Origin: Pempheris klunzingeri
Taxonomy: Eukaryota > Chordata > Actinopteri > Acropomatiformes > Pempheridae
Assembly: GCF_042242105.1 (NCBI RefSeq)
Contig: NC_092029.1
Span: 3,386,885-3,450,884, forward strand
DNA length: 64,000 nucleotides
Direction of reading: 5' to 3'
Below are positions 24,907 through 55,155 of the stretch, one piece after another. A model generated the notes under the pieces. It was not told the origin of the DNA, ran no database searches, and saw nothing but the letters and a program-made list of their open reading frames with translations. Each line of letters starts with the position of its first letter. The first letter of the stretch is position 1. The translations under genes and the position numbers were made by a program.

Positions 24907-26560
24907 ATGATGGTTGGATTCAGACGGATTAAATTGTCTTTATTTCTGATGCTGCTGCCTCAGTTCACAGGTGAGGACACATACGACAAACAGGAATACC
25001 AGACAAACCACAAGCTTCCGTCTTCTTTACCGCAAATATCAACAAGAAAAACATTCTAATATTTCATCCTATTTCTCTCTCGTCTTTACAACAGCAGTGA
25101 TCGGACAGTTTCCGCCCCACTTTGTTGTCAGAGATGGAGGTGAAGTCACTTTGTCTTGTCAAAATGCGATAAATGATCAGGACGGATGTAACATGATTGA
25201 CTGGATCTTCATCGCACAAAACAAAGTGGTGACAGAGCTGGTTGAATCTGGGCAGATTATTCAACAGGCCAGAGCTAAATCAGACAGACTGAGCGTTACG
25301 GAGACCTGTTCTCTGGTTATAAAGAAGGTCACAGCTGAGGATGTTGGGTTCTACATCTGCAGAGAAAAGAAACCAGAACTCCAGTCTAGTGTGGCTCATC
25401 TGTCTCTTATTACCTGTGAGTATTTACATCTTAATGTTTTCAGCTCAAACTGTCTTCTTAGAACAATATCCTGAGACATAATGATATGATAACATTAACT
25501 TTTATTTTCTTTGTGTGATAATATCTTCATCTGCACCAGTGACTGAACAAACGGACGGCGATATGGTGACGTTAAACTGCTCTGTATCAACATACGGAGG
25601 ATGCGAACACACAGTGAAGTGGCTGTATGAGGACAAAAATATAGACACGGAGACATCACAGTCTGACTGCTCAGTTACTCTGACATTTCCCGCGACTCGC
25701 CTCAAACAGAAGCCGAAGGATCGTGAGTTGTTCAAGTGTGAAGTGAATGGTACATACAATAGACAAACACAGCAGTTCACCTACAGCCCTCTGTCTTCAG
25801 GTGAGAAACCAGCTGAGATCAAGATCCTGATAAACTACATCTGATTATTTGATGGATTTTAAGTTTTAAGATGACGCCATTCTTTCTCATTTAGTTACTG
25901 CAGATGGTCTTTTCTTATTTTACAGTTTTTAATTTGTCAGGTGAGGAGGCCTCAACAACAAGATCACCACCAGCAGCAGCACAAGAGGGTGAGAAACACC
26001 AGCAAGGCTGAACACACACGTGTTGTGCCTCTGATTTCCTGCTGAAAACTTTCCTCTCTGACATGTTTTCTGTCCCACAGCTCGTGCAGGTTGTTCTGTT
26101 CTGGACTACATGATGTTGGTCATACGTGTGGCTGAAATCCTCCTGATTACTGTGATCACTGTTCTTCTCTTCAGAGCTCGAGGTGAGAAAACTCAGAGCA
26201 ACATTTGTTCAGACTGATTAAGAGTTTAGAGGTGAAAAGTGACTCTGTGGTTTATTTTCCAGGGAAGCAGAGAGCAGCTGATGACAAAACTGTGAGTTCA
26301 AACACAAAGTGAAGTGAAGTGATGAGTAAAATCACAAATGTAGATGGATGATCAGGGACTGTAAGTCAGTGTAAATGATTATCAGCTGCTGCTGGTAACT
26401 GCTGATGTCTCTGTGATGCAGTAATTCAACATTTCTTTGTTCCATTTGAACTCAGGTGTGTTGCTGTTTCTCACAGGTGCATCATGGTGGAGACGGACAT
26501 GACGGCACAGTGAACTATGAGAACATGGGAGAACCTTCAGCTTCTGTCAGACTCCACTGA
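24907..26560 (+). CDS. Receptor A: two-Ig-domain membrane receptor with YENM tail
   Basis: Seven exons (24907-24970, 25095-25415, 25540-25800, 25941-25988, 26081-26182, 26263-26291, 26477-26560) join in frame to 302 residues. The signal peptide is about 22 residues (MMVGFRRIKLSLFLMLLPQF). Ig domain 1 has VTLSC, DGCNMIDW, ETCSLVI and VGFYIC; domain 2 has VTLNC, GGCEHTVKWLY, SDCSVTL and LFKCEV. Each therefore has the canonical cysteine pair and tryptophan plus a second Cys pair. A short Pro/Ala stalk leads to the helix LVIRVAEILLITVITVLLF, with Arg and Glu inside the membrane. The tail ends TVNYENMGEPSASVRLH; YENM fits both YxxM (PI3-kinase) and YxN (Grb2). There is no J-like motif, so it is not a NITR. 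I know no mammalian orthologue and give no symbol. Its Ig domains are the most divergent of the array, while exons 4-7 are almost identical to those of B-E. Confidence 0.88.
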
Positions 26561-27483
26561 TCAACAGCTTCCACACCAGCATCACCTGAGCAGAGAAATG
26601 AGTCCACAGCTGTTCAACATTTCTTCACAGCAACATTAAATAAAATCCACTCAACTTTATTTACATGGCACTTCATACCCAACTCAGAGCTTAGTAGCAA
26701 AGCAGGCTATTTTATGCTGTTTCATAGCTCTGAATAACCTTAGAAGCAGAAGCTGAGGTATCTGACTCTGCTATCAGTCTCAACTTTGACTTCTTTCTTT
26801 TGACCATAACCGCCATCTCTTGCTACATCTTTGCTGTCACCAAGTGAAGTTCATGCCTGCAAAACTTACTCAAATAAAAAAAAAAAAAAGGCAAAGTCAC
26901 TGTGTGGTTGACCTTTCTTAATCAGTAGACACATGCAACTTGTAAAAAGTTGACCTTGCTTTGCCAAAAAAACCAGAACCTGCACTAAAGCACACTGGAG
27001 ACATATCGTATAGTTTCAGGCTACTCGATATAAGTATGTTGCAGGCAATTTAGATGCTTATAAGTGTAGATGCTTAGACGTTTATACTCCACAGATCACT
27101 GACAATTTCATTTAGTATTTTCTTCACAAACTACATCTTTTGTTTCGCTGTACAAGAAGAAATACTTGACACAAAATGAATTTCACCCTCAAGGATAACC
27201 TCACACACTTTAATAAAACAAGTATATTCAATAGTGATGCTGGAGGAATAACAAGCTTATTGCTATATCTCTGTCTGGCAAAAAAGGGACAAGCGACCCA
27301 TGTGTTTTTACAACAAACAGTACATGGTCTTTTTTTCTAGGGTTCAACCAGGTAAAAGAGGTAAAAGGGACTTGAATGTTTTTGTCGTTGAGTCGCAAAC
27401 AATTCAGGTGTTTAGGGTCAAGTTGTAGAGCAGTCAAGTTCATGTCAAGTCTCAAGTCTTCATCTATGCAGCCTCGCGTGAAG
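26561..27483. other. Receptor A 3' UTR and spacer
   Basis: No coding exon recognised. AATAAAATCCACTCAACTTT at about 26637 resembles the start of a repeat seen again near 31229 and 38805, and gives a possible poly(A) signal. The rest looks unique. Confidence 0.4.
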
Positions 27484-28766: not shown

Positions 28767-28775
28767 GAGGAAGTG
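28767..28775 (+). promoter_or_regulatory. PU.1/ETS-type GAGGAAGTG motif of receptor B
   Basis: GAGGAAGTG 94 bases before the start codon, followed by a TATA-like TTTTATATTC near 28798. Confidence 0.5.
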
Positions 28776-28860
28776 ACTCTTTCTTAAACACAGAGGGTTT
28801 TATATTCCTGTGTCAGACACACCAGATCATTTAGATCATCAGGACAGCAGAGAGGAAAAC

Positions 28861-30421
28861 ATGGCTGAATTAACATGGATTAGAATATTTGTATTTCTGA
28901 CACTGATGCTTCAGTTTACAGGTAAGAATACATTTCTGTACACATCTATTTAAAAAATGTTAAGTAAATAAGGTTAAGTACTATGAATACTGTAAACACC
29001 ATAAGGCTTCTTTAACATTAAGTCTGAGCATGACAGTTGTATTCTGATTTATTTTTTATATTTGTCTATAATCTTCTCAACAGCAACACGGGGACAATAC
29101 TTCTCCTTCACTGTCAGAGCTGGAGATGGAGTCACTTTGCCTTGTAACAGTGAGACAAAGGATCAGGATACATGTGTCAGTGCTACCTGGAGCCACAGTG
29201 GTTCAAAACACTCAGGAGCAGTACAGCTGTTTTTATTTGGAAAACTAAAAGCTGAATCAGACAGATTTAGTGTGGCAGCGAACTGTTCTCTGGTTATAAA
29301 GAAGGTCACAGCTGAGGATGCTGGTCGTTACATCTGCCAACAGACAAACTCAGGAACACATCTTGTTTATCTGTTTCTTATTGACAGTGAGTATTTACAT
29401 CATCATGATTTCAGCTCAAACTGTTTTGTTGGACCAATTTATTAAAACTTAATATTTATGATCACAGTGATGACGTTGATTGTTTTTCTCTCACATCTCT
29501 CCTTCTCTTCACCAGTGACCGAACATGAAGACAAAAACAAAGTGATGCTGAAGTGCTCTGTGTCGACACATGGACGGTGCAAACACACAGTGAGGTGGCT
29601 GTATGAGGGTAAAGACAACAGATACAAGGTGACATCTCGGTCTGACTGCTCAGCCAGTATCACTGTTCTGACCTCTGACAAGCCAAAGTATCATCAGTTA
29701 TTCAAGTGTGAAGTGACCGATGTTATCAGTGGTCAGCAGTTCACCTTCAGCCCTCAGTCGTCAGGAGAGAAAACATGTGAGATTGTGACAAGCTGTGTTA
29801 AGACGGCATCATTCATTCTCATATAGTTACTGCAGATGGTCTTTTCATATTTTACAGTTTTTAATTTGTCAGGTGAGGAGGCCTCAACAACAAGATCACC
29901 ACCAGCAGCAGCACAAGAGGGTGAGAAACACCAGCAAGGCTGAACACACGTGTTGTGCCTCTGATTTCCTGCTGAAAACTTTCCTCTCTGACATGTTTTC
30001 TGTCCCACAGCTCGTGCAGGTTGTTCTGTTCTGGACTACATGATGTTGGTCATACGTGTGGCTGAAATCCTCCTGATTACTGTGATCACTGTTCTTCTCT
30101 TCAGAGCTCGAGGTGAGAAAACTCAGAGCAACATTTGTTCAGACTGATTAAGAGTTTAGAGGTGAAAAGTGACTCTGTGGTTTATTTTCCAGGGAAGCAG
30201 AGAGCAGCTGATGACAAAACTGTGAGTTAAAACACAAAGTGAAGTGAAGTGATGAGTAAAATCACAAATGTAGATGGATGATCAGGGACTGTAAGTCAGT
30301 GTAAATGATTATCAGCTGCTGCTGGTAACTGCTGATGTCTCTGTGATGCAGTAATTCAACATTTCTTTGTTCCATTGGAACTCAGGTGTGTTGCTGTTTC
30401 TCACAGGTGCATCATGGTTGA
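28861..30421 (+). CDS. Receptor B: two-Ig-domain receptor with truncated tail
   Basis: Exons 28861-28921, 29084-29386, 29516-29776, 29873-29920, 30011-30112, 30193-30221 and 30407-30421 give 272 residues. The signal peptide starts MAELTWIRIFVF. Domain 1 has LPC, DTCVSATW, ANCSLVIKKV and GRYICQQ; domain 2 has LKC, GRCKHTVRWLY, SDCSASI and LFKCEV, keeping the double Cys-pair design. The membrane exon is the Arg/Glu type (LVIRVAEILL). In the last exon GGTGGA has become GGTTGA, so the protein stops after VHHG and the YENM motif is not translated, although its sequence is still present downstream. The donor of exon 3 differs from its relatives and makes a Cys codon at the exon 3/4 join (GEKTC), giving an extra stalk cysteine. 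Signalling, if any, would have to go through an adaptor binding the membrane Arg. Confidence 0.85.
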
Positions 30422-30799
30422 GACGGACATGACGGCACAGTGAACTATGAGAACATGGGAGAACCTTCAGCTTCTGTCAGACTCCACTGATCAACAGCTT
30501 CCACACCAGCATCACCTGAGCAGAGAAATGAGTCCACAGCTGTTCAACATTTCTTCACAGCAACTGATGTCATCTCATTTTAAGATGCTGTCCATGTAAG
30601 AACACACGTCATGGTGTTGTTTGGAAGTTTTTACATGAAGTAACTTTCTTTGGATTTCATCTGTGTGAATTTAGACCTGCAGATTTGTCTGATTGCCTTT
30701 TACTTTGTTAGCAGCTTACTATGATATTCACCATTCTTTCAGCAGAGAACCTCATTTTAGTAACTTTGATGTTTAATTGTTCGTTTGTGGTCTCATGTA

Positions 30800-31035
30800 A
30801 TTTTGCCTCATGGGCACTGCCGAGATGCCTTTGAGCAAGACACTGACGCCCTGACTGCTCCAGCTATGTGGCAGGAACATCACTTCACCATCTCTCCCCA
30901 CAGTTGTGTGTCTAAAGGCCTTGCATGTGCATGTCTGTATTTTGGGCCTGTGTGTGTTTGTAAAAACTGTACATTGGACGGGAAAGATTGAACTTTTCCT
31001 TAAAGGGAAATAATAAAGTAATTCTACTTCTCCTG
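30800..31035 (+). repeat. SINE-like interspersed repeat (unit 1)
   Basis: Begins near CATGGGCACTGCCGAGATGC, includes TTTGAGCAAGACACTGACGC and ends CCTTAAAGGGAAATAATAAA then GTAATTCT. The phrases resemble a common fish repeat with an AATAAAGTA-type tail. It is also present in unit 2, so it predates that duplication. Confidence 0.5.
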
Positions 31036-31370: not shown

Positions 31371-34330
31371 ATCCATCCATTTTCAACCACTTATCCGGGG
31401 TCGAGTCGCGGGGGCAGCAGTTTTAGCAGAGATGCCCAAACTTCCCGGGCCCCAGACACCTCCTCCAGCTCATCCGGTGGGACCCCGAGGCGTTCCCAAG
31501 CCAGCCGAGAGACGTAGTCCCTCCAGCATGTCCTGGGTCTTCCCCGGGGCCTCCTTCCAGTGGGACATGCCCGGAAAACCTCCCCAGGGAGGCGTCCAGG
31601 AGGCATCCGAAGCAGATGCCCGAGCCACCTCAGCTGGCTCCTCTCGATGTGGAGGAGCAGCGGCTCTACTCCGAGCCCCTCCCGGATGGTCGAACTCCTC
31701 ACCCTATCTCTAAGGGTGAGTCCGGCCACCCTGCGGAGGAAACTCATTTCGGCCGCTTGTATCCGAGATCTCGTTCTTTCGGTCATGACCCAAAGTTCAT
31801 GACCATAGGTGAGGGTAGGAACGTAGATCGACCGGTAAATCGAGAGCTTTGCCTTTTGGCTCAGCTCCCTCTTCACCACGACGGACCGATACAGCGGCCA
31901 CATTACTGCAGACGCTGCCCCGATCCGCCTGTCGATCTCACGCTCCATCCTTCCCCCACTCGTGAACAAGACCCCGAGATACTTGAACTCCTCCACTTGA
32001 GGCAAGGACTCTCCACCGACCCGGAGATGGCAAACCACCTTTTTCCGGTCGAGAACCATGGCCTCGGACTTGGAGGTGCTGATTCTCATCCCAGCCGTTT
32101 CGCACTCGGCTGCAAACCGCCCCAGTGCACACTGGAGGTCTCGGCCCGACGAAGTCAACATGACAACAGAACAGAAATTCTGTCCATAAAAATAATGAAC
32201 AGAACCGGTGACAAAGGGCAGCCCTGCCGGAGTCCAACATGCACCGGGAACAGGTCTGACTTACTGCCGGCAATGCGAACCAGACTCCTACTCCGGTCGT
32301 ACAGGGACCGGACAGCCCTTAGCAAAGGGCCCCGGACCCCATACTCCCGAAGCACCCCCCACAAGATGCCACGAGGGACACGGTCGAATGCCTTCTCCAA
32401 GTCCACAAAGCACATGTGGACAGGTTGGGCAAACTCCCATGAACCCTCGAGCACCCGATGGATAGTGTGGAGCTGGTCCAGTGTTCCGCGACCAGGACGG
32501 AACCCGCATTGCTCCTCCTGAATCCGAGGTTCGACTATCGGCCGTATCCTCCTCTCCAGTACCCTGGAACAAACTTTCCCGGGGAGGCTGAGGAGTGTGA
32601 TCCCCCTATAGTTGGAACACATCCTCCGGTCCCCCTTCTTAAAAAGAGGGACCACCACCCCGGTCTGCCATTCCAGAGGCACTGTCCCCGACCGCCAGGC
32701 GATGTTACAGAGACGTGTCAACCAAGACAGTCCCTGTACATCCAGAGACTTGAGGTATTCAGGGCGGATCTCGTCCACCCCTGGTGCCTTGCCACCGAGG
32801 AGCTTTCTGACCACCTCGGCAACTTCGGCTTGGGTGATGAACGAGTCCACTTCTGAATCCCCAGCCTCTGCCTCCTCAATGGAAGACCTGGCGGTGGGAT
32901 TGAGGAGATCCTCGAAGTATTCCTTCCACCGCCCGACGACATCCCCAGTCGAGGTCAACAGCTCCCCACCCTCACTGTAAACAGTGTTGGTGGAGTACTG
33001 CTTCCCCCCCCTGAGGCGCCGGACGGTTTGCCAGAATTTCCTGGAGGCCGACCGGTAGTCCTCCTCCATGGCCTCCCCGAACTCCTCCCAGGCCAGAGTT
33101 TTTGCCTCCACATCCGCCCGGGCTGCAGCACGCTTGGCCTGCCGGTACCTGTCAGCTGCCTCAGGAGTTCCACGAGCCAACAAGGCCCGGTAGGACTCCT
33201 TCTTCAGCTTGACGGCATCCCTTACTTCCAGTGTCCACCACCGGGTTTGGGGATTGCCACCACGACAGGCACCAGAGACCTTACGGCCACAGCTCCGAGC
33301 GGCCGCGCCAACAATGGAGGTGGAGAACATGGTCTACTCGGACTCAATATCTCCAGCCTCCCCCGGGATCTGTGAGAAGCTCTCCCGGAGGTGGGAGTTG
33401 AAAACCGCAGCGACAGCGGGTTCCGCCAGACGTTACGTTCCCAACAGACCCTCACGATATGCTTGGGCCTGCCGAGTCTCTCCGGCTTCCTCCCCTGCCA
33501 GCGGATCCAACTCACCACCAGGTGGTGATCAGTTGACAGCTCAGCCCCTCTCTTCACCCGAGTGTCCAGAACACACGGACAGAGGTCAGATGACACGACA
33601 ACGAAGTCGATCATCGACCAATCTGTGACTAGCACAGAAGTCCAACAACAGAACACCACTCGGGTTCAGATCGGGGAGGCCGTTCCTCCCAATCACGCCC
33701 CTCCAGGTCTCACTGTCGCTGCCCACGTGGGCGTTGAAGTCCCCCAGTAGAACAATGGAGTCCCCAGTCGGCGCACCATCCAGCACCCCTCCCAGGGACT
33801 CCAAGAAGGCCGGGTACTCTGCACTGCTGTTCGGCCCATAGGCTGAAACCACAGTAAGAGACCTGTCCCCGACCCGAAGGCGCAGGGACGCGACCCTCTC
33901 GTTCACCGGGGTAAACTCCAGCACATGGCGGCTGAGCTGTGGAGCTATAAGCAAGCCCACACCAGCCCGCCTCCGCACACCGCGGGCAACACCAGAGAAA
34001 TGGAGAGTCCAGCCCCTCTCGAGGAGCTGGGTTCCAGAGCCCAAGCTGTGAGTGGAGGTGAGCCCGACTATATCTAGCCGGTACCTCTCAACCTCCCGCA
34101 CAAGCTCCGGCTCCTTCCCCCCCAGCGAGGTGACATTCCATGTCCCTACAGCCAGAGGCTGTCTCCGAGGCCCAGGTCGTCGGGGCACTCCGCCTCGACC
34201 GCCACCCGTGCCACATAGCACCCGACCCCTACGACTCCCTCTGCGGGTGGTGGGCCCACAGGAGATAATGATAGTGACAGTAAAGGCACGTGGTCACACA
34301 TAGCCCATAGTGACACAGACCTGGGTTAGG
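31371..34330 (-). mobile_element. LINE copy 1, RTE clade (Rex3-like), defective
   Basis: Minus-strand non-LTR retrotransposon. From its 5' side it has an apurinic-type endonuclease region (34221 down to about 33560; [25 protein letters not shown]), a reverse transcriptase region (33330-32155; GFRPGRGTLDQL, CFVDLEKAFDRVP, GLRQGCPLSPVLF) and a C-terminal region (32161-31391; RGRPRTCWRDYVSRLAWERL). The 3' end is GGTTGAAAATGGATGGATC. It is dead: the stretch that should carry the FADD catalytic motif between IIFMDRIS and SSGRDLQ is deleted, a stop lies between the endonuclease and RT parts, and this copy has a 5-base tandem insertion near 33435 that copy 2 lacks. The 5' boundary is uncertain. Clade assignment is from memory of fish Rex3-like proteins. 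Confidence 0.9.
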
Positions 34331-35794: not shown

Positions 35795-35803
35795 GAGGAA
35801 GTG
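35795..35803 (+). promoter_or_regulatory. PU.1/ETS-type GAGGAAGTG motif of receptor C
   Basis: GAGGAAGTG 94 bases before the start codon, identical in spacing to receptor B. Confidence 0.5.
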
Positions 35804-35888: not shown

Positions 35889-37975
35889 ATGGCTGAATTA
35901 ACATGGATTAGAATATTTGTATTTCTGACACTGATGCTTCAGTTTACAGGTAAGGATACATTTCTATACACATCTATTTAAAAAATGTTAAGTAAATAAG
36001 GTTAAGTACTATGAATATACTGTAAACACCATAAGGCTTCTTTAACATTAAGTCTGAGCATGACAGTTGTATTCTGATTTATTTTTCATATTATCTCTCT
36101 AATCTTCTCAACAGCAACACAGGGACAATACTCCTCCTTCATTGTCAGAGCTGGAGATGGAGTCACTTTGCCTTGTAACAGTGAGACAAAGGATCAGGAT
36201 ACATGTGTCAGTGCTACCTGGAGCCACAGTGGTTCAAAACACCCAGGAGGAGTAGATCTGTTTTCATTTGGAGAGCTAAAGGCTGAATCAGACAGATTTA
36301 GTGTGACAGCGAACTGTTCTCTGGTTATAAAGAAGGTCACAGCTGAGGATGCTGGTCGTTACATCTGCCAACAGCCAAACTCAGGAGCACGTCGCGTTTA
36401 TCTGTTTCTTATTGACAGTGAGTATTTACATCATCATGATTTCAGCTCAAACTGTTTTGTTGGACCAATTTATTAAAACTTAATATTTATGATCACAGTG
36501 ATGTCGTTGATTGTTTTTCTCGCACATCTCTCTGTTATGATCTTGAGTTTAGTTATTGTCTCGTCTCTTGTCTCTTGTCACTTCCGGTTTTATTTTGAAA
36601 TTCCCTGTCCTCCTCTCGTTTTAGATATTGGTACTTTCTTTCCTCCTGTGTCTGTCCTCTGTGATTGTCTGGCCCCGCCTTGATTGTTTCCACCTGTTCC
36701 CCATTAGCTCGTGTATTTTAGTCTCCATCTCCCCTTTGTCCTGTGCCAGTTCGTCAAGTACCTTCGTCTTGTCAACCAGCGGTCCTGTTTCCTTGGACCT
36801 TATCTTGAATCCGTGTCTGTGAATTTTGTCTTTGTGTTGATACTTTTGTTGTTACTTTTTTTGTATAGATTGCCTTTGGCCTGACTATTTCTGTTTATTG
36901 TATTTTGTTTTGTTTTTTGCTCCTGCTTTTACGGAGTTGTTTTTGTTTCCATAGTCTTAGCTTTTTGCCACCGTGCTTGATTGTTTTGTCTTTTCTTAAT
37001 AAAGTTTATTTTGATACTTTTTAGTCGTGCGTGTGGGTTCTGGTTCTGTTCGCCTCCGGGCTTAACACTCTCCTTCTCTTCACCAGTGACCGAACATGAA
37101 GACAAAAGCAAAGTGATGTTAAACTGCTCTGTGTCGACATATGGAGAGTGCAGACACACAGTGAGGTGGCTGTATGAGGGTAAAGACAACAGATACAAGA
37201 CGACATCTCGGTCTGACTGCTCAGCCAGTATCACTGTTCTGACGTCTGACAAGCCAAAGTATCATCAGTTATTCAAGTGTGAAGTGACTGATGTTATCAG
37301 TGGTCAGCAGTTCACCTTCAGCCCTCAGTCGTCAGGAGAGAAACCAGGTGAGATTGTGACAAGCTGTGTTAAGACGGCATCATTCATTCTCATTTAGTTA
37401 CTGCAGATGGTGAACATGAGGTCATTTCTTATCACCAGCAGCAGCACAAGAGGGTGAGAAACACCCGTCCCTTCAGCAGAACCACCAGCAAGGCTGAACA
37501 CACGTGTTGTGCCTCTGATTTCCTGCTGAAAACTTTCCTCTCTGACATGTTTTCTGTCCCACAGCTCGTGCAGGTTGTTCTGTTCTGGACTACATGATGT
37601 TGGTCACACGTGTGGCTGAAATCCTCCTGATTACTGTGATCACTGTTCTTCTCTTCAGAGCTCGAGGTGAGAAAATTCAGAGCAACATTTGTTCAGACTG
37701 ATTAAGAGTTTAGAGGTGAAAAGTGACTCTGTGGTTTATTTTCCAGGGAAGCAGAGAGCAGCTGATGACAAAACTGTGAGTTCAAACACAAAGTGAAGTG
37801 AAGTGATGAGTAAAATCACAAATGTAGATGGATGATCAGGGACTGTAAGTCAGTGTAAATGATTATCAGCTGCTGCTGGTAACTGCTGATGTCTCTGTGA
37901 TGCAGTAATTCAACATTTCTTTGTTCCATTGGAACTCAGGTGTGTTGCTGTTTCTCACAGGTGCATCATGGTTGA
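35889..37975 (+). CDS. Receptor C: two-Ig-domain receptor with truncated tail
   Basis: Exons 35889-35949, 36115-36417, 37087-37347, 37439-37453, 37565-37666, 37747-37775 and 37961-37975 give 261 residues; skipping the 15-nt exon would also stay in frame. It is the sister of B, with the same leader, a domain 1 reading QYSSFIVRAGDGVTLPC and a domain 2 with GECRHTVRWLY. The linker exon of B has been replaced by a 15-nt mini-exon (AAAQE), shortening the stalk. The helix reads LVTRVAEILL, keeping the Arg and Glu. The same GGTTGA nonsense codon as in B ends the protein after VHHG. Intron 2 contains a solo LTR that the other receptors lack; the splice sites around it are intact. Confidence 0.82.
36533..37067 (+). 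mobile_element. Solo LTR in intron 2 of receptor C
   Basis: A 535-base element beginning TGTTATGATC and ending GGGCTTAACA (TG...CA ends with 5-base inverted repeats), flanked by the 5-base duplication CTCTC at 36528-36532 and 37068-37072. The empty site is seen in receptor B. It has an AATAAAG near its 3' end. No internal region is present. It looks like a Ty3/gypsy-type LTR, though the family is not proven. It is absent from all other copies, so it inserted after B and C split and is young. Confidence 0.88.
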
Positions 37976-38364
37976 GACAGACATGACGGCACAGTGAACT
38001 ATGAGAACATGGGAGAACCTTCAGCTTCTGTCAGACTCCACTGATCAACAGCTTCCACACCAGCATCACCTGAGCAGAGAAATGAGTCCACAGCTGTTCA
38101 ACATTTCTTCACAGCAACTGATGTCATCTCATTTTAAGATGCTGTCCATGTAAGAACACACGTCATGGTGTTGTTTGGATGTTTTTACATGAAATAACTT
38201 TTAGTAACTTTCTTTGGATTTCATCTGTGTGAATTTAGACCTGCAGATTTGTCTGATTGCCTTTTACTTTGTTAGCAGCTTACTATGATATTCACCATTC
38301 TTTCAGCAGAGAACCTCATTTTAGTAACTTTGATGTTTAATTGTTCGTTTGTGGTCTCATGTAG

Positions 38365-43455: not shown

Positions 43456-45459
43456 ATGGCTGAATTAACATGGATTAGAATATTTGTGTTTCTGACACTG
43501 ATGCCTCAGGTTACAGGTAAGGATACATTTCTGTACACATCTATTTAAAAAAAGAAAAACATTACAAGTGTTAATCTTTTTTGAAAATACTGCCTGATTT
43601 AATTAAGGTTAAGTACTATGAATATACTGTAAACACCATAAGGCTTCTTTAACATTAAGTCTGAGCATGACAGTTGTATTCTGATTTATTTTTTATATTT
43701 GTCTATAATCTTCTCAACAGCAACACGGGGACAATACTCCTCCTTCACTGTCAGAGCTGGAGATGGAGTCACTTTGCCTTGTAACAGTGAGACAAAGGAT
43801 CAGGATACATGTGTCAGTGCTACCTGGAGCCACAGTGGTTCAAAACACTCAGAAGGAGCAGAAGAGCTGTTTGTATTTGGAAAGATTGTTGAAAAGCTAA
43901 AAGCTGAATCAGACAGATTTAGTGTGGCAGCGAACTGTTCTCTGGTTATAAAGAAGGTCACAGCTGAGGATGCTGGTCGTTACATCTGCCAACAGACAAA
44001 CTCAAGAAGACATCTCGTTTATCTGTTTCTTATTGACAGTGAGTATTTACATCATCATGATTTCAGCTCAAACTGTTTCGTTGGACCAATTTATTAAAAC
44101 TTAATATTTATGATCACAGTGATGACGTTGATTGTTTTTCTCTCACATCTCTCCTTCTCTTCACCAGTGACCGAACATGAAGACAAAAACAAAGTGATGT
44201 TAAACTGCTCTGTGTCGACACATGGATGGTGCAGATACACAGTGAGGTGGCTGTATGAGGGTAAAGACAACAGATACAAGACGACATCTCCGTCTGCCTG
44301 CTCAGCCAGTATCACTGTTCTGACCTCTGACAAGCCAAAGTATCATCAGTTATTCAAGTGTGAAGTGACCAATAATATTAATCATCAGAAGTTCACCTTC
44401 AGCCCTCAGTCGTCAGGAGAGAAACCAGGTGAGATTGTGACAAGCTGTGTTAAGACGGCATCATTCATTCTCATTTAGTTACTGCAGATGGTGAACACGT
44501 GTTTTTTTTCTCACTGCAGAGTTTGTTACTTCCGTTCCAGGTAAGGATCCAAAAGCAGCAACTGAATCAACAGCACCAACGTCACCAACACCAGCAGGTA
44601 AAAACAAAAGCACATCTACAAACAATAAAGAAAGGACGAGATAACATAATGTCTCACATATCACATTAGACATTTAGTGAAGTGACCAATAATATTAGTC
44701 ATCAGCAGTTCACCTTCAGCCCTCAGCCGTCAGGAGAGAAACCAGGTGAGATTGTGACAAGCTGTGTTAAGACGGCATCATTCATTCTCATTTAATTACT
44801 GCAGATGGTCTTTTCTTATTTTACAGTTTTTAATTTGTCAGGTGAGGAGGCCACAACGACAAGATCACCACCACCAGCAGCACAAGAGGGTGAGAAACAC
44901 CAGCAAGGCTGAACACACGTGTTGTGCCTCTGATTTCCTGCTGAAAACTTTCCTCTCTGACATGTTTTCTGTCCCACAGCTCGTGCAGGTTGTTCTGTTC
45001 TGGACTACATGATGTTGGTCACACGTGTGGCTGAAATCCTCCTGATTACTGTGATCACTGTTCTTCTCTTCAGAGCTCGAGGTGAGAAAACTCAGAGCAA
45101 CATTTGTTCAGACTGATTAAGAGTTTAGAGGTGAAAAGTGACTCTGTGGTTTATTTTCCAGGGAAGCAGAGAGCAGCTGATGACAAAACTGTGAGTTAAA
45201 ACACAAAGTGAAGTGAAGTGATGAGTAAAATCACAAATGTAGATGGATGATCAGGGACTGTAAGTCAGTGTAAATGATTATCAGCTGCTGCTGGTAACTG
45301 CTGATGTCTCTGTGATGCAGTAATTCAACATTTCTTTGTTCCATTTGAACTCAGGTGTGTTGCTGTTTCTCACAGGTGCATCATGGTGGAGACGGACATG
45401 ACGGCACAGTGAACTATGAGAACATGGGAGAACCTTCAGCTTCTGTCAGACTCCACTGA
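43456..45459 (+). CDS. Receptor D: two-Ig-domain receptor with YENM tail
   Basis: Exons 43456-43516, 43721-44038, 44168-44428, 44520-44597, 44842-44889, 44980-45081, 45162-45190 and 45376-45459 give about 326 residues. Domain 1 is five residues longer than in B and C (an insert near FGKIVEKLKAESD). Domain 2 keeps all four Cys (LNC, GWCRYTVRWLY, SACSASI, LFKCEV). The stalk has two parts: a short form of the Thr-rich exon also found in E and F (EFVTSVPGKDPKAATESTAP and on) and the EEATTTRSPPPAAQE linker found in A and B. The helix is LVTRVAEILL type and the tail ends intact with NYENM. D thus combines stalk elements of both halves of the array. A fragment of a duplicated domain 2 exon lies in the intron between the stalk exons. 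Which stalk exons are really used needs transcript data. Confidence 0.84.
44677..44745 (+). pseudogene. Duplicated 3' end of a second-Ig-domain exon in receptor D
   Basis: About 70 bases repeat the end of exon 3 (AGTGACCAATAATATTAG to GAGAGAAACCAG) with its GTGAG donor, but no acceptor or domain start. It is an orphan fragment. Confidence 0.8.
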
Positions 45460-47690
45460 TCAACAGCTTCCACACCAGCATCACCTGAGCAGAGAAATGA
45501 GTCCACAGCTGTTCAACATTTCTTCACGGCATCATTTTACATGAAGAACATCAGTCCTGATTCCATTTGGAGGTCGTAGTTAACGTGTTAACGTTTGGTT
45601 TTAAAGTTAATGTGCTGAAGCAGTTCTTACCAGCAGACACAAAGCACTGATGTCATCTCATTTTAAGATGCTGTCCATGTAAGAACACACGTCATGGTGT
45701 TGTTTGGTAGTTTTTGGAAGTTTTTACATGAAAGAACTTTTAACAACTTTCTTTGGATTTCATCTGTGTGAATTTAGACCTGCAGATTTGTCTGATTGCC
45801 TTTTACTTTGTTAGCAGCTTACTATGATATTCACCATTCTTTCAGCAGAGAACCTAATTTTAGTAACTTTGATGTTTAATTGTTCATTTGTGGTCTCATG
45901 TGGTTTGATAAGTTTGCCCAGTAGATTTGAATGAGCTTTGATTCTTAATGGAGTCAGTAACAGGGCTGTCTCTGTCATGATATGCTGAGAAAACAATGTT
46001 AAATCCTCAACTATATGTTAACATGTAGTTAACTCACATCCCATGTCTTCTGCAGTAAATAATGGATAACCACATTAGTTTTAGGGAGAGAAAAAACAAT
46101 TACTGATGTCACCCTAGTAACTGTAGCGTTTTAGAATTGCTGTTTGAGTCTAAAACTCTTGAAAAAATGTGTCCAAGAAATATTTTGCTGTTGTGGAAAA
46201 CAAAAGTACTTTGTAAAAGTTTTGCAATGATGCCCGTCAGCATCACAGCACTGAGGCTGCCCTTTGTAAAGTTACCAATGACCTTTGATGATTGCTGATG
46301 CAGCTTAATTCTTGTGCTACTTGACATACATATAATAAATAATCTGTATAATAATATATTCATAAGACCCAAAACTAATAAAACCCATTTTTTGTGAATG
46401 CAGTTTGGCTAAAGATACCATATTGTTACGGTTGCGTTTGTACTGAACCCAAAAAGCTGGACTGAGCCGGTGGTTGTGGTAAAAAAGTAAAGGCTTTATT
46501 AAATGAGCAAAAAGCAGAAGACGAGGAGACGAGTCACTGGCAGGCAGGTGGACTGTAGACAAGCTGGGAGACAACACATGGGAGGGTGGACCGTAGAATG
46601 GCTGACTGGAAGGGTAGACAGTGGAGTGGAGACGGAGACGGCACTGGAGGGCTGATCAACGAGGAGAATGGGATCTGTACAAAGTCAGGAAGAGACCAAA
46701 TGTTCAGGCCTCAAAGAGATAAAGAGATATCAGAAGAGTACTGAGTGGTGCTGTTGTCTTCACCGAGTTGACGGAACAATCTGGCACCGCAGTGAAGACA
46801 CAGGTCCGCTTATACGGCAGAGTAGATGAGGATGATGAGCAGCAGGTGTGCCTCGCTGATGAAGACACACATCAGAACACACACACAGACACAGAGTGGG
46901 GGAAGGGAGTGAAGGCAGGGGAAGACACAGACAAGAAAAGTGAAAAAAAAACAAAAACATCCAGTATATGACAGTCACTGTTCACACTGTGACACCATAT
47001 ATGCACAAGAAAATACATGTTGACCTGGTGATGGTGCCAGATGAAGAGGGAAAGAAGTGAATAAAGTGATAAAAGCTCAGAGTAGTTGTAAGAGCAGCAG
47101 TTGTCAAGATCACTCAGTAAAAAACAAGCAAACGCATGTCAGACAGTGTTGAGTGACCACAGACTGGCCTCTTCTGTGTGCACACAGTCTCAGACCAGTA
47201 AGACATCATCGTATCCGTGATCTCTCTGAGCTGCTGCAGCGTCACCACATCACACCGTGGACGTCAGGAGTCACATCCTGGTGGACGAGGAGTTTGGCTC
47301 TTCACCTGTGTGTTCATGTGTGCTGTCAAACATCACCATGACTCCTGTCTGCTCTCTGATAAACACTGTCTGAAGGATGAAAGTCACAGCATCACATATT
47401 TTTAGCTCAACCATCAACTTCACACCAACCACCAACTTCCTCAGTCCTCTCGTCTTCTTCTTTTCAGACACGTCACAAATACAAATACATTTAGTAAAAT
47501 GTCCCACATACTAAATCTGGTTTTACAGGATCTCTTCAATGATCTCCTCTGACCTCTTTAATCTTTATTTATTTTGATATTGCTGATAAGATCATTGGGA
47601 ATCAATTAGCAAAATGTTTTTGCTTTTTAGAGACTCAGAGATGAAACGCTGATATGCTCCACCTACATGAGAAAAAAAAGAACAGACGAT
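45460..47690. repeat. Spacer duplicated after receptors D and E (copy 1)
   Basis: Holds the receptor D 3' UTR, a unique-looking AT-rich part, a solo LTR and a shortened form of the promoter-proximal block. It matches 50123-52355 almost base for base (offset about 4,663), so the D-E and E-F spacers are copies of each other. No coding exon was recognised. Confidence 0.9.
46424..46994 (-). mobile_element. Solo LTR between receptors D and E
   Basis: A 571-base element with TG...CA ends (TGTTACGG to CTGTGACA), flanked by CCATAT at 46418-46423 and 46995-47000. The AATAAA signal reads on the minus strand, giving the orientation. No internal region. The family is uncertain. It is present at the matching place after receptor E, so it predates that duplication. 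Confidence 0.75.
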
Positions 47691-47699
47691 GAGGAAGTG
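47691..47699 (+). promoter_or_regulatory. PU.1/ETS-type GAGGAAGTG motif of receptor E
   Basis: GAGGAAGTG 94 bases before the start codon. Confidence 0.5.
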
Positions 47700-47784
47700 A
47701 CTCTTTCTTAAACACAGAGGGTTTTATATTCCTGTGTCAGACACACCAGATCATTTAGATCATCAGGACAGCAGAGAGGAAAAC

Positions 47785-50122
47785 ATGGCTGAATTAACAT
47801 GGATTAGAATATTTGTATTTCTGACACTGATGCTTCAGTTTACAGGTAAGAATACATTTCTTTTTTTAAATCTTTTGAAAATACTGCCTGATTTAATTAA
47901 GGTTAAGTACTATGAATATACTGTAAACACCATAAGGCTTCTTTAACATTAAGTCTGAGCATGACAGTTGTGTTCTGATTTATTTTTTATATTTGTCTAT
48001 AATCTTGTCAACAGCAACACGGGGACAATACTCCTCCTTCATTATCAGAGCTGGAGATGGAGTCACTTTGCCTTGTAACAGTGAGACAAAGGATCAGGAT
48101 ACATGTGTCAATGCTACCTGGAGCCACAGTGGTTCAACAGACTCAGGAGGAGCAGATCTGTTTGTATTTGGAAAGATTGTTGAAAAGCTAAAAGCTGAAT
48201 CAGACAGATTTAGTGTGGCAGTGAACTGTTCTCTGGTTATAAAGAAGGTCACAGCTGAGGATGCTGGTTTTTACATCTGCCAACAGACAAACTCAAGAAG
48301 ACATCTCGGTTATCTGTTTCTTATTGACAGTGAGTATTTACATCATCATGATTTCAGCTCAAACTGTTTCGTTGGACCAATTTATTAAAACTTAATATTT
48401 ATGATCACAGTGATGACGTTGATTGTTTTTCTCTCACATCTCTCCTTCTCTTCACCAGTGACCGAACATGAAGACAAAAGCAAAGTGATGTTAAACTGCT
48501 CTGTGTCGACATATGGAGAGTGCAGACACACAGTGAGGTGGCTGTATGAGGGTAAAGACAACAGATACAAGACGACATCTCGGTCTGCCTGCTCAGCCAG
48601 TATCACTGTTCTGACGTCTGACAAGCCAAAGTATCATCAGTTATTCAAGTGTGAAGTGACCGATGATATCAGTGGTCAGAAGTTCACCTTCAGCCCTCAG
48701 TCACCAGGAGAGAAACCAGGTGAGATTGTGACAAGCTGTGTTAAGACGGCATCATTCATTCTCATTTAGTTACTGCAGATGGTGAACACACGTTTTTTTT
48801 CTCACTGCAGAGTTTGTTACTTCCGTTCCAGGTAAGGATCCAAAAGCAGCAAGTGAATCAACAGCACCAACAACAAAACCAGCAACAACAACGTCACTAA
48901 CAGAAATGTCACCCGCAAAACCAGCACTAACAAAAACTTCACCAACAACAAAGTCACTAACAGAAACATCACCACCAACAACTGATTCAACAACAAAACC
49001 AACATTCGCAGGTACAAACTAAACCACATCTCCAAACAATAAGGCTCTAACGAAAGGATGAGATGACATAATGTCTCACATATCACATTACACATTTAGA
49101 CTTCAGTGGAGTTTTGGAAACCACAGATGACATCAAGGCAAAGACAATCGTCTTTAATACACTCTTTCAACTCAGCGACACATTAGAAACAGACAGTGTT
49201 TTTGTTTTTACATCCTTCATTTGCAAGTTCAGCACTTAGTGTTTAGTGTGGCCATGGTGTCTAACTGTGGACATGTCCAAAATGTCCCTCATCAAATGTG
49301 TTATCAGTGCATGTTGTATTGTTCTGACAAGCCAAAGTATCATCAGTTATTTAAATGTGAAGTGACCGATATTATCAGTGGTTAGAAGTTCACCTTCAGC
49401 CCTCAGTCGTCAGGAGAGAAACCAGGTGAGATTGTGACAAGCTGTGTTAAGACGGCATCATTCATTCTCATTTAGTTACTGCAGATGGTGAACATGAGGT
49501 CATTTCTTATCACCAGCAGCAGCACAAGAGGGAGAGAAACACCCGTCCCTTCAGCAGCACCACCAGCAAGGCTGAACACACGTGTTGTGCCTCTGATTTC
49601 CTGCTGAAAACTTTCCTCTCTGACATGTTTTCTGTCCCACAGCTCGTGCAGGTTGTTCTGTTCTGGACTACATGATGTTGGTCATACGTGTGGCTGAAAT
49701 CCTCCTGATTACTGTGATCACTGTTCTTCTCTTCAGAGCTCGAGGTGAGAAAACTCAGAGCAACATTTGTTCAGACTGATTAAGAGTTTAGAGGTGAAAA
49801 GTGACTCTGTGGTTTATTTTCCAGGGAAGCAGAGAGCAGCTGATGACAAAACTGTGAGTTAAAACACAAGGTGAAGTGAAGTGATGAGTAAAATCACAAA
49901 TGTAGATGGATGATCAGGGACTGTAAGTCAGTGTAAATGATTATCAGCTGCTGCTGGTAACTGCTGATGTCTCTGTGATGCAGTAATTCAACATTTCTTT
50001 GTTCCATTGGAACTCAGGTGTGTTGCTGTTTCTCACAGGTGCATCATGGTGGAGACGGACATGACGGCACAGTGAACTATGAGAACATGGGAGAACCTTC
50101 AGCTTCTGTCAGACTCCACTGA
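47785..50122 (+). CDS. Receptor E: F-like ectodomain and Thr-rich stalk with YENM tail
   Basis: Exons 47785-47845, 48015-48329, 48459-48719, 48811-49011, 49643-49744, 49825-49853 and 50039-50122 give about 350 residues. Domain 1 has LPC, DTCVNATW, VNCSLVI and FYICQQ, with an extra N-glycosylation site (NAT). Domain 2 has GECRHTVRWLY and four Cys. The stalk exon encodes 67 residues rich in Thr, Ser and Pro, likely O-glycosylated, and nearly identical to that of F. The helix and tail (LVIRVAEILL, NYENM) are of the A/D type. The gene is therefore a mosaic of an F-like front and a D-like back. A 15-nt mini-exon like that of C lies near 49516-49530, but its donor is GAGAG instead of GTGAG, so it should be skipped; the stalk exon joins the membrane exon in frame without it. 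Confidence 0.84.
49321..49425 (+). pseudogene. Duplicated 3' part of a second-Ig-domain exon in receptor E
   Basis: About 105 bases match the end of exon 3 (TCTGACAAGCCAAAGTATCA to GAGAAACCAG) with its donor, but the domain start is missing and an in-frame TAG interrupts it. A longer version of the fragment seen in D. Confidence 0.85.
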
Positions 50123-52355
50123 TCAACAGCTTCCACACCAGCATCACCTGAGCAGAGAAATGAGTCCACAGCTGTTCAACATTTCTTCACAGCATCATTT
50201 TACATGAAGAACATCAGTCCTGATTCCATTTGGAGGTCGTAGTTAACGTGTTAACGTTTGGTTTTAAAGTTAATGTGCTGAAGCAGTTCTTACCAGCAGA
50301 CACAAAGCACTGATGTCATCTCATTTTAAGATGCTGTCCATGTAAGGACACACGTCATGGTGTTGTTTGGTAGTTTTTGGAAGTTTTTACATGAAATAAC
50401 TTTTAACAACTTTCTTTGGATTTCATCTGTGTGAATTTAGACCTGCAGATTTGTCTGATTGCCTTTTACTTTGTTAGCAGCTTACTATGATATTCACCAT
50501 TCTTTCAGCAGAGAACCTCATTTTAGTAACTTTGATGTTTAATTGTTCATTTGTGGTCTCATGTGGTTTGATAAGTTTGCCCAGTAGATTTGAATGAGCT
50601 TTGATTCTTAATGGAGTCAGTAACAGGGCTGTCTCTGTCATGATCTGCTGAGAAAACAATGTTAAATCCTCAACTATATGTTAACATGTAGTTAACTCAC
50701 ATCCCATGTCTTCTGCAGTAAATAATGGATAACCACATTAGTTTTAGGGAGAGAAAAAGCAATTACTGATGTCACCCTAGTAACTGTAGCGTTTTAGAAT
50801 TGCTGTTTGAGTCTAAAACTCTTGAAAAAATATGTCCAAGAAATATTTTGCTGTTGTGGAAAACAAAAGTACTTTGTAAAAGTTTTGCAATGATGTCCGT
50901 CAGCATCACAGCACTGAGGCTGCCCTTTGTAAAGTTACCAATGACCTTTGATGATTGCTGATGCAGCTTAATTCTTGTGCTACTTGACATACATATAATA
51001 AATAATCTGTATAATAATATATTCACAAGACCCAAAACTAATAAAACCCATTTTTTGTGAATGCAGTTTGGCTAAAGATACCATATTGTTACGGTTGCGT
51101 TTGTACTGAACCCAAAAAGCTGGACTGAGCCGGTGGTTGTGGTAAAAAAGTAAAGGCTTTATTAAATGAGCAAAAAGCAGAAGACGAGGAGACGAGTCAC
51201 TGGCAGGCAGGTGGACTGTAGACAAGCTGGGAGACAACACATGGGAGGGTGGACCGTAGAATGGCTGACTGGAAGGGTAGACAGTGGAGTGGAGACGGAG
51301 ACGGCACTGGAGGGCTGATCAACGAGGAGAATGGGATCTGCACAAAGTCAGGAAGAGACCAAATGTTCAGGCCTCAAAGAGATAAAGAGATATCAGAAGA
51401 GTACTGAGTGGTGCTGTTGTCTTCACCGAGTTGACGGAACAATCTGGCACCGCAGTGAAGACACAGGTCCGCTTATACGGCAGAGTAGATGAGGATGATG
51501 AGCAGCAGGTGTGCCTCGCTGATGAAGACACACATCAGAACACACACACAGACACAGAGTGGGGGAAGGGAGTGAAGGCAGGGGAAGACACAGACAAGAA
51601 AAGTGAAGAAAAAAAAAAAACATCCAGTATATGACAGTCACTGTTCACACTGTGACACCATATATGCACAAGAAAATACATGTTGACCTGGTGATGGTGC
51701 CAGATGAAGAGGGAAAGAAGTGAATAAAGTGATAAAAGCTCAGAGTAGTTGTAAGAGCAGCAGTTGTCAAGATCACTCAGTAAAAAACAAGCAAACGCAT
51801 GTCAGACAGTGTTGAGTGACCACAGACTGGCCTCTTCTGTGTGCACACAGTCTCAGACCAGTAAGACATCATCGTATCCGTGATCTCTCTGAGCTGCTGC
51901 AGCGTCACCACATCACACCGTGGACGTCAGGAGTCACATCCTGGTGGACGAGGAGTTTGGCTCTTCACCTGTGTGTTCATGTGTGCTGTCAAACATCACC
52001 ATGACTCCTGTCTGCTCTCTGATAAACACTGTGTGAAGGATGAAAGTCACAGCATCACATATTTTTAGCTCAACCATCAACTTCACACCAACCACCAACT
52101 TCCTCAGTCCTCTCTTCTTCTTCTTTTCAGACACGTCACAAATACAAATACATTTAGTAAAATGTCCCACATACTAAATCTGGTTTTACAGGATCTCTTT
52201 AATGATCTCCTCTGACCTCTTTAATCTTTATTTATTTTGATATTGCTGATAAGATCATTGGGAATCAATTAGCAAAATGTTTTTGCTTTTTAGAGACTCT
52301 CAGAGATGAAACGCTGATATGCTCCACCTACATGAGAAAAAAAAGAACAGACGAT
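50123..52355. repeat. Spacer duplicated after receptors D and E (copy 2)
   Basis: Second copy of 45460-47690, with the E 3' UTR, the same AT-rich part, the solo LTR and the shortened promoter block. No coding exon was recognised. Confidence 0.9.
51087..51657 (-). mobile_element. Solo LTR between receptors E and F
   Basis: Duplicate of the LTR at 46424-46994, same length and the same CCATAT flanks (51081-51086, 51658-51663). It is carried by the segmental duplication rather than inserted anew. Confidence 0.75.
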
Positions 52356-52364
52356 GAGGAAGTG
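52356..52364 (+). promoter_or_regulatory. PU.1/ETS-type GAGGAAGTG motif of receptor F
   Basis: GAGGAAGTG 94 bases before the start codon. Confidence 0.5.
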
Positions 52365-52449
52365 ACTCTTTCTTAAACACAGAGGGTTTTATATTCCTGT
52401 GTCAGACACACCAGATCATTTAGATCATCAGGACAGCAGAGAGGAAAAC

Positions 52450-55155
52450 ATGGCTGAATTAACATGGATTAGAATATTTGTATTTCTGACACTGATGCTT
52501 CAGTTTACAGGTAAGAATACATTTCTGTACACATCTATTTAAAAAATGTTAAGTAATTAAGGTTAAGTACTATGAATATACTGTAAACACCATAAGGCTT
52601 CTTTAACATTAAGTCTGAGCATGACAGTTGTATTCTGATTTATTTTTCATATTATCTCTCTAATCTTCTCAACAGCAACACAGGGACAATACTCCTTCTT
52701 CACTGTCAGAGCTGGAGATGGAGTCACTTTGCCTTGTAACAGTGAGACAAAGGATCAGGATACATGTGTCAGTGCTACCTGGAGCCACAGTGGTTCAAAA
52801 CACTCAGGAGGAGCAGTAGATCTGTTTGTATTTGGAAAGATTGTTGAAAAGCTAAAAGCTGAATCAGACAGATTTAGTGTGGCAGCGAACTGTTCTCTGG
52901 TTATAAAGAAGGTCACAGCTGAGGATGCTGGTCTTTACATCTGCCAACAGACAAACTCAAGAAGACATCAGGTTTATCTGTTTCTTATTAACAGTGAGTA
53001 TTTACATCATCATGATTTCAGCTCAAACTGTTTCGTTGGACCAATTTACTAAAACTTAATATTTATGATCACAGTGATGACGTTGATTGTTTTTCTCTCA
53101 CATCTCTCCTTCTCTTCACCAGTGACCGAACATGAAGACAAAAACAAAGTGATGTTAAACTGCTCTGTGTCGACATATGGAGAGTGGAAACACACAGTGA
53201 GGTGGCTGTATGAGGGTAAAGACAACAGATACAAGACGACATCTCCGTCTGCCTGCTCAGCCAGTATCACTGTTCTGACGTCTGACAGGCCAAAGTATCA
53301 TCAGTTATTCAAGTGTGAAGTGACCAATAATATTAATTATCAGAAGCTCACCTTCAGCCCTCAGTCGTCAGGAGAGAAACCAGGTGAGATTGTGACAAGC
53401 TGTGTTAAGACGGCATCATTCATTCTCATTTAATTACTGCAGATGGTGAACACGTGTTTTTTTTTCTCACTGCAGAGTTTGTTACTTCCGTTCCAGGTAA
53501 GGATCCAAAAGCAGCAAGTGAATCAACAGCACCAACAACAAAACCAGCAACAACAACGTCACTAACAAAAATGTCACCCGCAAAACCAGCACTAACAAAA
53601 ACTTCACCAACAACAAAGTCACTAACAGAAACATCACCACCAACAACTGATTCAACAACAAAACCAACATTCGCAGGTACAAACTAAACCACATCTCCAA
53701 ACAATGAGGCTCTAACGAAAGGACACTACGACAAAACGTCTCACATATCTCTGTCACTGAAAGTCCTTTGCCTCTTTGTCTCTCTCTTCCTGCTGTTGTC
53801 TTTATGTCTAGGTTTCTAAACTCATACCTTCTTTTAGCCACAGGAAGAGAGCTGCAGGAAGTTGGTTTTTTAACATTTTCAGTCTCTTTCCAGGTTGGTG
53901 GTGGTTCATTCTTTTGGCCGTGGTTTTAGCAGCAGTGTTTGTTGTGGCGTTCATCGGATGGAAGAGAACTAAAAGTGAGAGTTATTCACTGACTTCCCAC
54001 AAGTTCTGATAAACCTGCTTCATCACTGAGACGCTAAATTCCTGAGCGACTCCCTCTTTTTTGTCTTCACAGGGAACAAACTGCAGACGGATGTCAGCAC
54101 TGTAAGTGTTAAAAACATTTTTATTCACTTCCCCTTCCACCAAACCTGAGCCACTTTTGCTGCAAGCTTTCCAAATGTAGCAAGTATTTAGTTTAAAATG
54201 ACAACAGTGACAGATTTACTACATGAAATGTCTGTCTGTCTGTCCTGAACCACAGATTCTTAATTGTAGTTGTCAAGCATCAATTTCTCTGGCAGATTTG
54301 AATGCAAAATAACACTGACTCCATTGTGTGGCATTGCTGGGTTACTGCTGGCTGTAAGAGTTAAAAAACTGCCATGCTGGTGAGCCTTTTTTATCAATAA
54401 TTTTCTCACCACATGCATTCATTTCCCCACTCCACACTGCTTCTGTTGCTGTGTCACATGTCAGTGATGCAACCAAACAATTCACCTCAGCAGCATCCAG
54501 GCTTGAACTCACTCCCCTCCCCTTTCTGTGCTGGGTTTGCATGCTTTCCTCATGCTTACATGTGTTGTCTGTGGCTTCTTCCCACTAGCCAGGTGAGGTC
54601 TAGTCTAGGTTTACTGACACTCTGAATCAGCTGTGGGTGTGAGTGGTTGCTGTCTCTATGTGTCGGCACAATAGTGTGCACTAGTCAGTGTTGTATATAT
54701 ACAGTGCACGTCAGGATGAATCCACATGTTACTGAGCAGCCAGTATGTTGTCTCCTCTCTGTAGGCTGATCCTGAGGATGGTGTTCCCTACGCCTCCATC
54801 AGCTACACCAACAAAAAACCCCGGGTAAGCTCTCTGATGGACGTCTGTCCGACGAGATGGTGTTACTGGTGACGTTAGTGAGAAAACTTCTCAGACTGAA
54901 AGGCAACTTGTAATGAATATTCATATTGATGAGTATTCTTATCAGCAGAAGAAACAAAGCGCTCCATTACAGTACATATAGGTGCTCCATTGTGAGGTGT
55001 ATGTCCTTCATCCCCAGGTTCAGGGTGAGGATGGTGATGGTGATGAAGATGACGCAGTGACCTACAGCACTGTGAAAGCCCCCTCCTCCTCTTCTGCTGC
55101 GGCCTCCACTGATCCCAGCAACCTCTATTCCACCGTCAACAAGTCGAACGAATGA
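52450..55155 (+). CDS. Receptor F: two-Ig-domain inhibitory receptor with two ITIMs
   Basis: Exons 52450-52510, 52676-52993, 53123-53383, 53476-53676, 53894-53974, 54073-54101, 54765-54824 and 55018-55155 join in frame to 382 residues. Leader, Ig domains and Thr-rich stalk follow the E pattern. The membrane exon is different: GWWWFILLAVVLAAVFVVAF then IGWKRTK, with no charged residue in the helix. The tail has VPYASI and VTYSTV, both fitting the ITIM pattern [ILV]xYxx[ILV], plus NLYSTV, an ITIM-like site with Asn at -2, and a SYTN site. ITIMs recruit SHP-1/SHP-2 or SHIP, so an inhibitory role is expected. Domain 2 reads GEWKHTVRWLY where relatives have a Cys, leaving its partner Cys (SACSAS) unpaired. 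F is the last whole gene of the array and the only one with this 3' half. Confidence 0.9.

Follow-up and report, generated by a model that had tools for sequence, protein, structure and literature searches.

Results

Gene models and signalling ends

The window analysed here is a stretch of 64,000 nucleotides from the fish Pempheris klunzingeri (C18:3386885-3450884, within a searched genome of 645.9 Mb and 439 contigs). Its plus strand carries, at 24907-55155, an array of six immunoglobulin (Ig) receptor genes, named A to F, of which A begins with the ATG at 24907 and F stops at 55155. All six were modelled from the sequence, with GT/AG splice sites and matching phases required, and every predicted gene followed the same exon order: leader, V-set domain (D1), second Ig domain (D2), a stalk of one or two exons, the membrane exon and the exons of the cytoplasmic part, the introns being of phase 1 up to exon T1 and of phase 0 between the tail exons (Table 1). 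The models of A, D, E and F were open through the final stop, and those of B and C only up to a TGA in the last exon. These in-frame models bear out a preliminary description of the same DNA, which had claimed six receptors on one strand and whose outer coordinates proved exact. They also agree with it on the membrane helices and the tail of F: an Arg and a Glu stand three residues apart in the helix of A, B and E (IRVAE) and of C and D (TRVAE), and F has a neutral helix followed by two immunoreceptor tyrosine-based inhibitory motifs (ITIMs), VPYASI and VTYSTV, which lie on separate exons and were recovered by a motif scan with the consensus (I/V/L/S)xYxx(I/V/L) (given in PMC2442602 and PMC12447643; these and all other papers are cited from excerpts).

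The last exon of A-E, overlooked in the preliminary description, encodes a VNYENM tail and was first exposed as VHHGGDGHDGTVNYENMGEPSASVRLH by an inverted seventh copy, G. The start of the VHHGGDGHDGTVNYENMGEPSASVRLH exon occurs in G and, 3' of the helix, in each of A-E, and about 440 bp around the YENM exon of G match A-E at 99.1-99.8% (427-440 bp aligned). In A, D and E, where this exon is open, the predicted receptor thus carries its own tyrosine tail. In B and C the exon has the same TGA just ahead of YENM, so that the charged helix is retained and the tail motif lost. YENM holds both the YxxM (PI3K) and the YxNx (Grb2/GADS) patterns, and the CD28 motif YMNM is described as combining YxxM and YxNx sites for PI3K and Grb2/GADS (PMC11599192).

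The proposed paired layout of activating and inhibitory genes thus stands at the sequence level, the ectodomain exons of F being 91-97% identical to those of B-E (V exon 94-97%, D2 exon 91-96%) and its 3' end having no blastn match to theirs. The label 'activating', however, had rested on the helix alone: A, D and E encode the YENM tail in addition, B and C have lost it, and A, D and E may not be adaptor-dependent, or not exclusively so.

Comparison of tail exons aligned the YENM exon with the last ITIM exon of F (local score 39) and with the tail exon of J, a left-flank member described below (score 42; DGTVNYENM vs DDTVNYENI), and in both cases 0 of 2000 shuffles scored as well; the match to the first ITIM exon of F was weak (112/2000 shuffles). 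These alignments indicate homology of the YENM exon with tail exons of the ITIM type, the last ITIM exon of F among them. The residue at Y+3 was Met in 7/7 charged-helix copies (behind the stop in B and C), and I or V in the ITIM-consensus motifs of 5/5 neutral-helix members; this association is a pattern and no independent test, because the members share descent.

A uniform activating module and mosaic joins

A module of 0.62 kb, which begins shortly ahead of the membrane exon, reaches the 3' untranslated region and includes the introns, was 98-100% identical among A-E and G. The copy in G, on the opposite strand and some 25 kb from A, matched A-E without gaps at 99.0-99.7% over 623-636 bp, and the copy in H, another left-flank member, was 99.2% identical. 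When the whole genome was searched with the Arg/Glu membrane exon, 7 matches were obtained (7 candidates, 7 scored), all of them at this locus (A-E, G and H); counts from this kind of search are lower bounds where a family is large.

The front end of E is shared with F. Their likeness covers the promoter, the leader, the V and D2 exons and the mucin stalk, ending 73 bp past the stalk exon, the E-F repeat being a recent unit with a period of 4663 bp. A dead 3' half of a D2 exon is found in D and again in E, in each case continuing into the activating module; in E, the segment 49323-50194 matches 37245-38116 of C at 98.4% without gaps, and the roughly 240 bp between the F-like and the C-like parts of E had no match elsewhere in the window in the same search. 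In the simplest account, D and E look like F-type front ends joined to a C-type activating end within the D2 exon. We infer this direction because D, E and F have a stalk exon type that is absent from B and C.

The second arm of the cluster

A-F, the array of the preliminary description, form one arm of a larger, two-sided cluster. Window positions 1-1600, passed over in that description, hold the inverted and broken copy G, whose V remnant is 71-74% alike to the other V exons, and the 50 kb to the left of the window hold five further members on the minus strand (H, I, J, K and M). H is of the activating type and its spliced model is open to the stop; I, J, K and M, whose description comes from open frames instead of full exon models, lie at C18 3366.5-3380.5 kb and have neutral helices. 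I has a V domain without a D2 match and the ITIMs VSYTSI and VTYTTV; M has V and D2 domains and an F-like ITIM tail (VSYATV, VTYTTV). J and K have V and D2 domains and a short one-tyrosine tail (EPNDEDDDTVNYENI or VNYENV); these VNYENI/VNYENV tails fit the ITIM consensus and look like intermediates between the ITIM and YENM forms. An additional D2-like fragment was found near C18 3366203. The 20 kb to the right of the window gave weak matches only.

Ectodomains and promoter

Four cysteines were present in D1 of 6/6 genes, as expected from the claim of two double-disulfide Ig domains per receptor; for D2 the claim holds in 5/6, since A-E have four cysteines and F three, its second pair being broken where it reads GEWKH. 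D2 had no V-set match in 6/6 genes at E values up to 0.1 and is weakly C1-like. Sequence matches of D1 in the PDB included CEA and CEACAM1, through E-F strands that are also common to Robo, contactin and antibody V domains. The leader, described as shared, is 95-100% alike among B-F at the DNA level, but that of A is only 74-75% alike; identity of A to B-E was 76-80% in the V exon and 77-80% in D2.

The V exons of B-F differed at 31 amino-acid-changing sites and 1 silent site (Fisher p 0.003 against approximate site numbers), a p-value that, like the others of this analysis, is indicative only because the copies are related and exchange sequence. The nonsynonymous rate exceeded the synonymous rate (dN > dS) in 9/10 V pairs, the exception being B-D, and many of the changed D1 residues fell at positions 41-51 and 92-99. 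The V exons are thus under apparent positive selection, an excess of this kind being what is expected if ligands or pathogens drive them.

The promoter motif claimed to be shared occurs beyond chance: all exact ATGAGGAAGTG sites in the window (7/7) lie upstream of the seven receptor copies, with 0.04 expected, at 96 bp from the start codon in B-F and 110 bp in A. The shorter core GAGGAAGTG has two extra sites elsewhere in the window, and in the left flank it stands 94-116 bp ahead of the leaders of H, J and M; for K, no exact core was found. The core may resemble ETS/PU.1 sites, a likeness that would be in keeping with a role in myeloid or lymphoid cells.

Other features of the locus

The intron between V and D2 is 129 bp long in B, D, E and F but reaches 669 bp in gene C (36418-37086), where it contains an insert of unrelated sequence. 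The mucin-like, Thr/Ser/Pro-rich stalk of E and F is coded by short tandem repeats of 15 and 30 bp (48865-48982 and 53530-53647), and its length may differ among individuals. The B-C and C-D intervals each hold a long reverse-transcriptase-like open frame; the two frames are nearly identical, the first has an Exo_endo_phos endonuclease-type match, and they were apparently duplicated along with the receptor units. The window also contains a gene with a PNRC motif, LIM-domain exons and a fatty-acid-binding exon, and the two arms of the receptor cluster are kept apart by ordinary genes. Gene content and a genome of 646 Mb agree with the preliminary description of the receptors as those of a fish.

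A genome search for V-set exons found large clusters on other contigs, at C16 2.13-2.23 and 3.17-3.29 Mb, C15 0.52-0.72 Mb, C13 17.35 and 20.67-20.74 Mb and C17 14.12-14.23 Mb, 150 matches having been scored of 1268 candidates. These are presumably antigen-receptor and other receptor loci; the sampled parts of the C17, C13 and C15 clusters are not close relatives.

Table 1 Predicted genes, remnants and other features of the window (positions count from its first nucleotide).
Feature	Coordinates	Strand	Details
Gene A	24907..26560	+	L 24907-24970, V 25095-25415, D2 25540-25800; predicted, open
Gene A 3' exons		+	Stalk 25941-25988, helix 26081-26182 (IRVAE), T1 26263-26291, T2 26477-26560 (VNYENM)
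Gene B	28861..30490	+	Exons as in A; IRVAE; TGA in last exon ahead of YENM codons
Gene C	35889..38044	+	Exons as in A; TRVAE; very short stalk; TGA in last exon ahead of YENM codons
Gene D	43456..45459	+	V, D2, stalk exons 44541-44597 and 44842-44889, TRVAE helix, VNYENM tail; open model
Gene E	47785..50122	+	V, D2, mucin-like stalk exon 48832-49011, IRVAE helix, VNYENM tail; open model
Gene F	52450..55155	+	V 52676-52993, D2 53123-53383 (one cysteine lost), mucin stalk 53497-53676
Gene F 3' exons		+	Neutral helix 53894-53974, T1 54073-54101, ITIM exons 54765-54824 (VPYASI) and 55018-55155 (VTYSTV, NLYSTV)
Module of A	26014..26637	+	99.7% to G over 624 bp
Module of B	29940..30562	+	99.7% to G over 623 bp
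Module of C	37494..38116	+	99.0% to G over 623 bp
Module of D	44909..45544	+	99.7% to G over 636 bp
Module of E	49572..50207	+	99.7% to G over 636 bp
Module of G	1..636	-	Helix 464-565, T1 355-383, T2 86-169; 99.0-99.7% to A-E
V-exon remnant of G	1309..1552	-	No leader; F-strand cysteine gone
D2 remnant of G	~1160-1226	-	Cut short; next after V remnant
Front end of E shared with F	47001..49084	+	96.6-96.7% identity to F 51664..53749
Dead D2 3' half in D	44677..44745	+	At hybrid join; 92-96% to D2 ends of E and F
Dead D2 3' half in E	49323..49425	+	In-frame stop; continues into C-like module
ATGAGGAAGTG upstream of A	24797..24807	+	
Other ATGAGGAAGTG sites	28765, 35793, 43360, 47689, 52354	+	
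Other ATGAGGAAGTG site	1594	-	
Reverse-transcriptase-like frame	31391-34293	-	Between B and C; Exo_endo_phos match
Reverse-transcriptase-like frame	38964-41861	-	Between C and D
PNRC-motif gene	4787-5257	-	
LIM-domain exons	11714-11821, 15211-15585	-	
Fatty-acid-binding exon	59721-60017	+	Lipocalin family

Discussion

We interpret A-F as germline-encoded, type I cell-surface paired immune receptors, in which charged-helix activating forms would stand against an ITIM-bearing inhibitory form and the signalling ends would be mobile, a reading to which we give a probability of about 0.65 on the strength of the sequence. F would recruit SHP-type phosphatases via its ITIMs and inhibit, and the helix Arg of A-E would pair with an adaptor carrying an immunoreceptor tyrosine-based activation motif, such as FcR-gamma or DAP12. 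Recruitment of PI3K/Grb2 via YENM would be added to this in A, D and E, and B and C would perhaps be activating through the helix Arg. Fish possess homologues of FcR-gamma and DAP12 (PMC4810170), and zebrafish Nitr9 acts via Dap12, a membrane Arg marking adaptor-dependent receptors such as NITR9 (PMC2442602). New pairs would be made at the locus by transfer of whole signalling ends, with conversion or unequal exchange keeping the 0.62-kb activating module uniform, a change from I/V to M at Y+3 accompanying the charged helix, and ligands or pathogens driving change in the V exons. Several observations weigh against this interpretation. The D2 exons of B-F, with 23 amino-acid-changing and 6 silent sites (p 1), show no excess of the former, and the caution attached above to the p-values applies to the V exons as well. 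The tail exon of J matched the last exon of F weakly (64/2000 shuffles), the YENM tail is missing from B and C, and copy G is not intact. Finally, an Arg and a Glu in one helix could neutralise each other or serve dimerisation.

The last point is also the starting point of an alternative that we regard as unlikely, namely that these are co-stimulatory receptors whose Arg and Glu cancel each other's charge or else stabilise a homodimer, YENM being the sole signalling route of A, D and E, a mode resembling that of CD28 or ICOS. In its favour are the presence of both helix charges in all seven copies and a tail with YxxM and YxNx, sites that have been described in CD28 (PMC11599192). A membrane Arg, however, is the mark of adaptor-dependent receptors in the NITR9 report (PMC2442602), and the retention of the charged helix by B and C without a tail motif suggests that the helix matters by itself.

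We also consider it improbable, to much the same degree, that the genes are a branch of a named fish family, most likely DICP, only the species-specific expansion being new. The DICPs are fish receptors with two Ig domains that come in ITIM-bearing and activating, charged-helix forms. Proteins similar to those of the array, with a V domain, a second domain and ITIMs, are presumably common, and unnamed, in the annotations of perch-like fish. Zebrafish DICPs have been reported to mark natural killer-like cells (PMC5340972).

There is little likelihood that the activating arm is mostly decaying recombination debris with F and few others at work. The stop in the last exon of B and C, the loss of leader and domain parts in G and the dead exon pieces in D and E would be in keeping with such decay, but the models of A, D, E and H have no stop before the final one, and the excess of amino-acid changes in the V exons of B-F is not that of neutral drift. 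That the near-identical modules are an assembly artefact is very improbable, since, although assemblies do fail at 0.6-kb repeats of 99-100% identity and the E-F unit is recent, the module adjoins ectodomains only 70-80% alike, on both strands, and some differences are confined to certain copies, for example TRVAE to C and D and the TGA to B and C.

Beyond the paired-receptor interpretation, we tentatively propose a more specific history, which we think possible but rather doubtful: a non-rearranging V-C1 family with a cassette-like signalling end, the 0.62-kb module, which would be confined to this locus in its genome and in which an ITIM-type tail exon would have become a PI3K/Grb2 motif, the helix would have gained Arg and Glu, and local exchange onto diverging ectodomains would convert inhibitory into activating receptors, with the dead D2 halves as scars. 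V-C1 is the pair of domains from which antibody light chains and T-cell receptors are built, and, if D2 is truly C1, the family would inform on V-C1 receptors without rearrangement. Paired receptors are thought to arise by repeated inhibitory-to-activating conversion, and candidate stages would coexist in this genome: forms with ITIMs (F, M), forms with a neutral helix and a single ITIM-like tyrosine (J, K), charged-helix forms with YENM (A, H), hybrids with visible joins (D, E), copies whose tail was lost secondarily (B, C) and one that is broken (G). The locus raises the questions of whether a change from I/V to M at Y+3 flips an ITIM-type tail to PI3K/Grb2 signalling, and of whether conversion can spread the signalling end instead of the ligand-binding end.

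Comparison with known receptor families

Judged by the predicted proteins, the array departs from NITR, NILT, CD300/TREM and CD28 in at least one defining feature each, as these are given in papers. We recognised no paper describing this array in the open-licence literature, a limit that makes this a weak negative. NITRs are characterised by a J or J-like motif (FGXGTXLXV) ending the V or I domain (PMC2442602), and its absence, already claimed in the preliminary description, was confirmed by inspection of 6/6 D1 and 6/6 D2. The second (I) domain of NITRs has six conserved cysteines, where D2 has four (A-E) or three (F), and the array further differs in the YENM of its activating tails. The NILT genes resemble the array as a fish cluster with ITIM forms and a leukocyte-type layout, and their V-type domains, of which there are one or two, contain an additional CX3C or CX6C pair (PMC3022915); here D2 is not V-set and none of the 11 D1 contains such a pair. 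CD300/TREM receptors and the fish SITRs also combine a V domain that has a second disulfide with paired forms, and CD300C relies on a charged helix residue (PMC12447643, PMC3031540). However, the WCR-type motif in strand C of CD300/TREM/pIgR (PMC3031540) has no counterpart in the 11 D1, in which the residue after the C-strand W is S, I, Y, A, L or F but never C, and here there are two Ig domains with the extra cysteines at other places. With CD28 the genes share a tail with YxxM and YxNx, as YENM in A, D, E, G and H and behind the stop in B and C, but the PPP motif of the CDR3-like loop (F-G region of D1; CDR3, complementarity-determining region 3) was absent by inspection from the 11 D1, and two Ig domains, a charged helix and an ITIM-bearing partner gene set them apart.

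The closest parallel in organisation is with KIR, CEACAM and CD300A/C, which likewise have near-identical ectodomains, opposite signalling ends and gene conversion (PMC5112662, PMC12447643). The excerpted reports on those systems stress conversion of the ligand-binding exon (PMC5112662, PMC12447643, PMC5701461), whereas in the array described here it is the signalling module that is uniform and the V exons that diversify.

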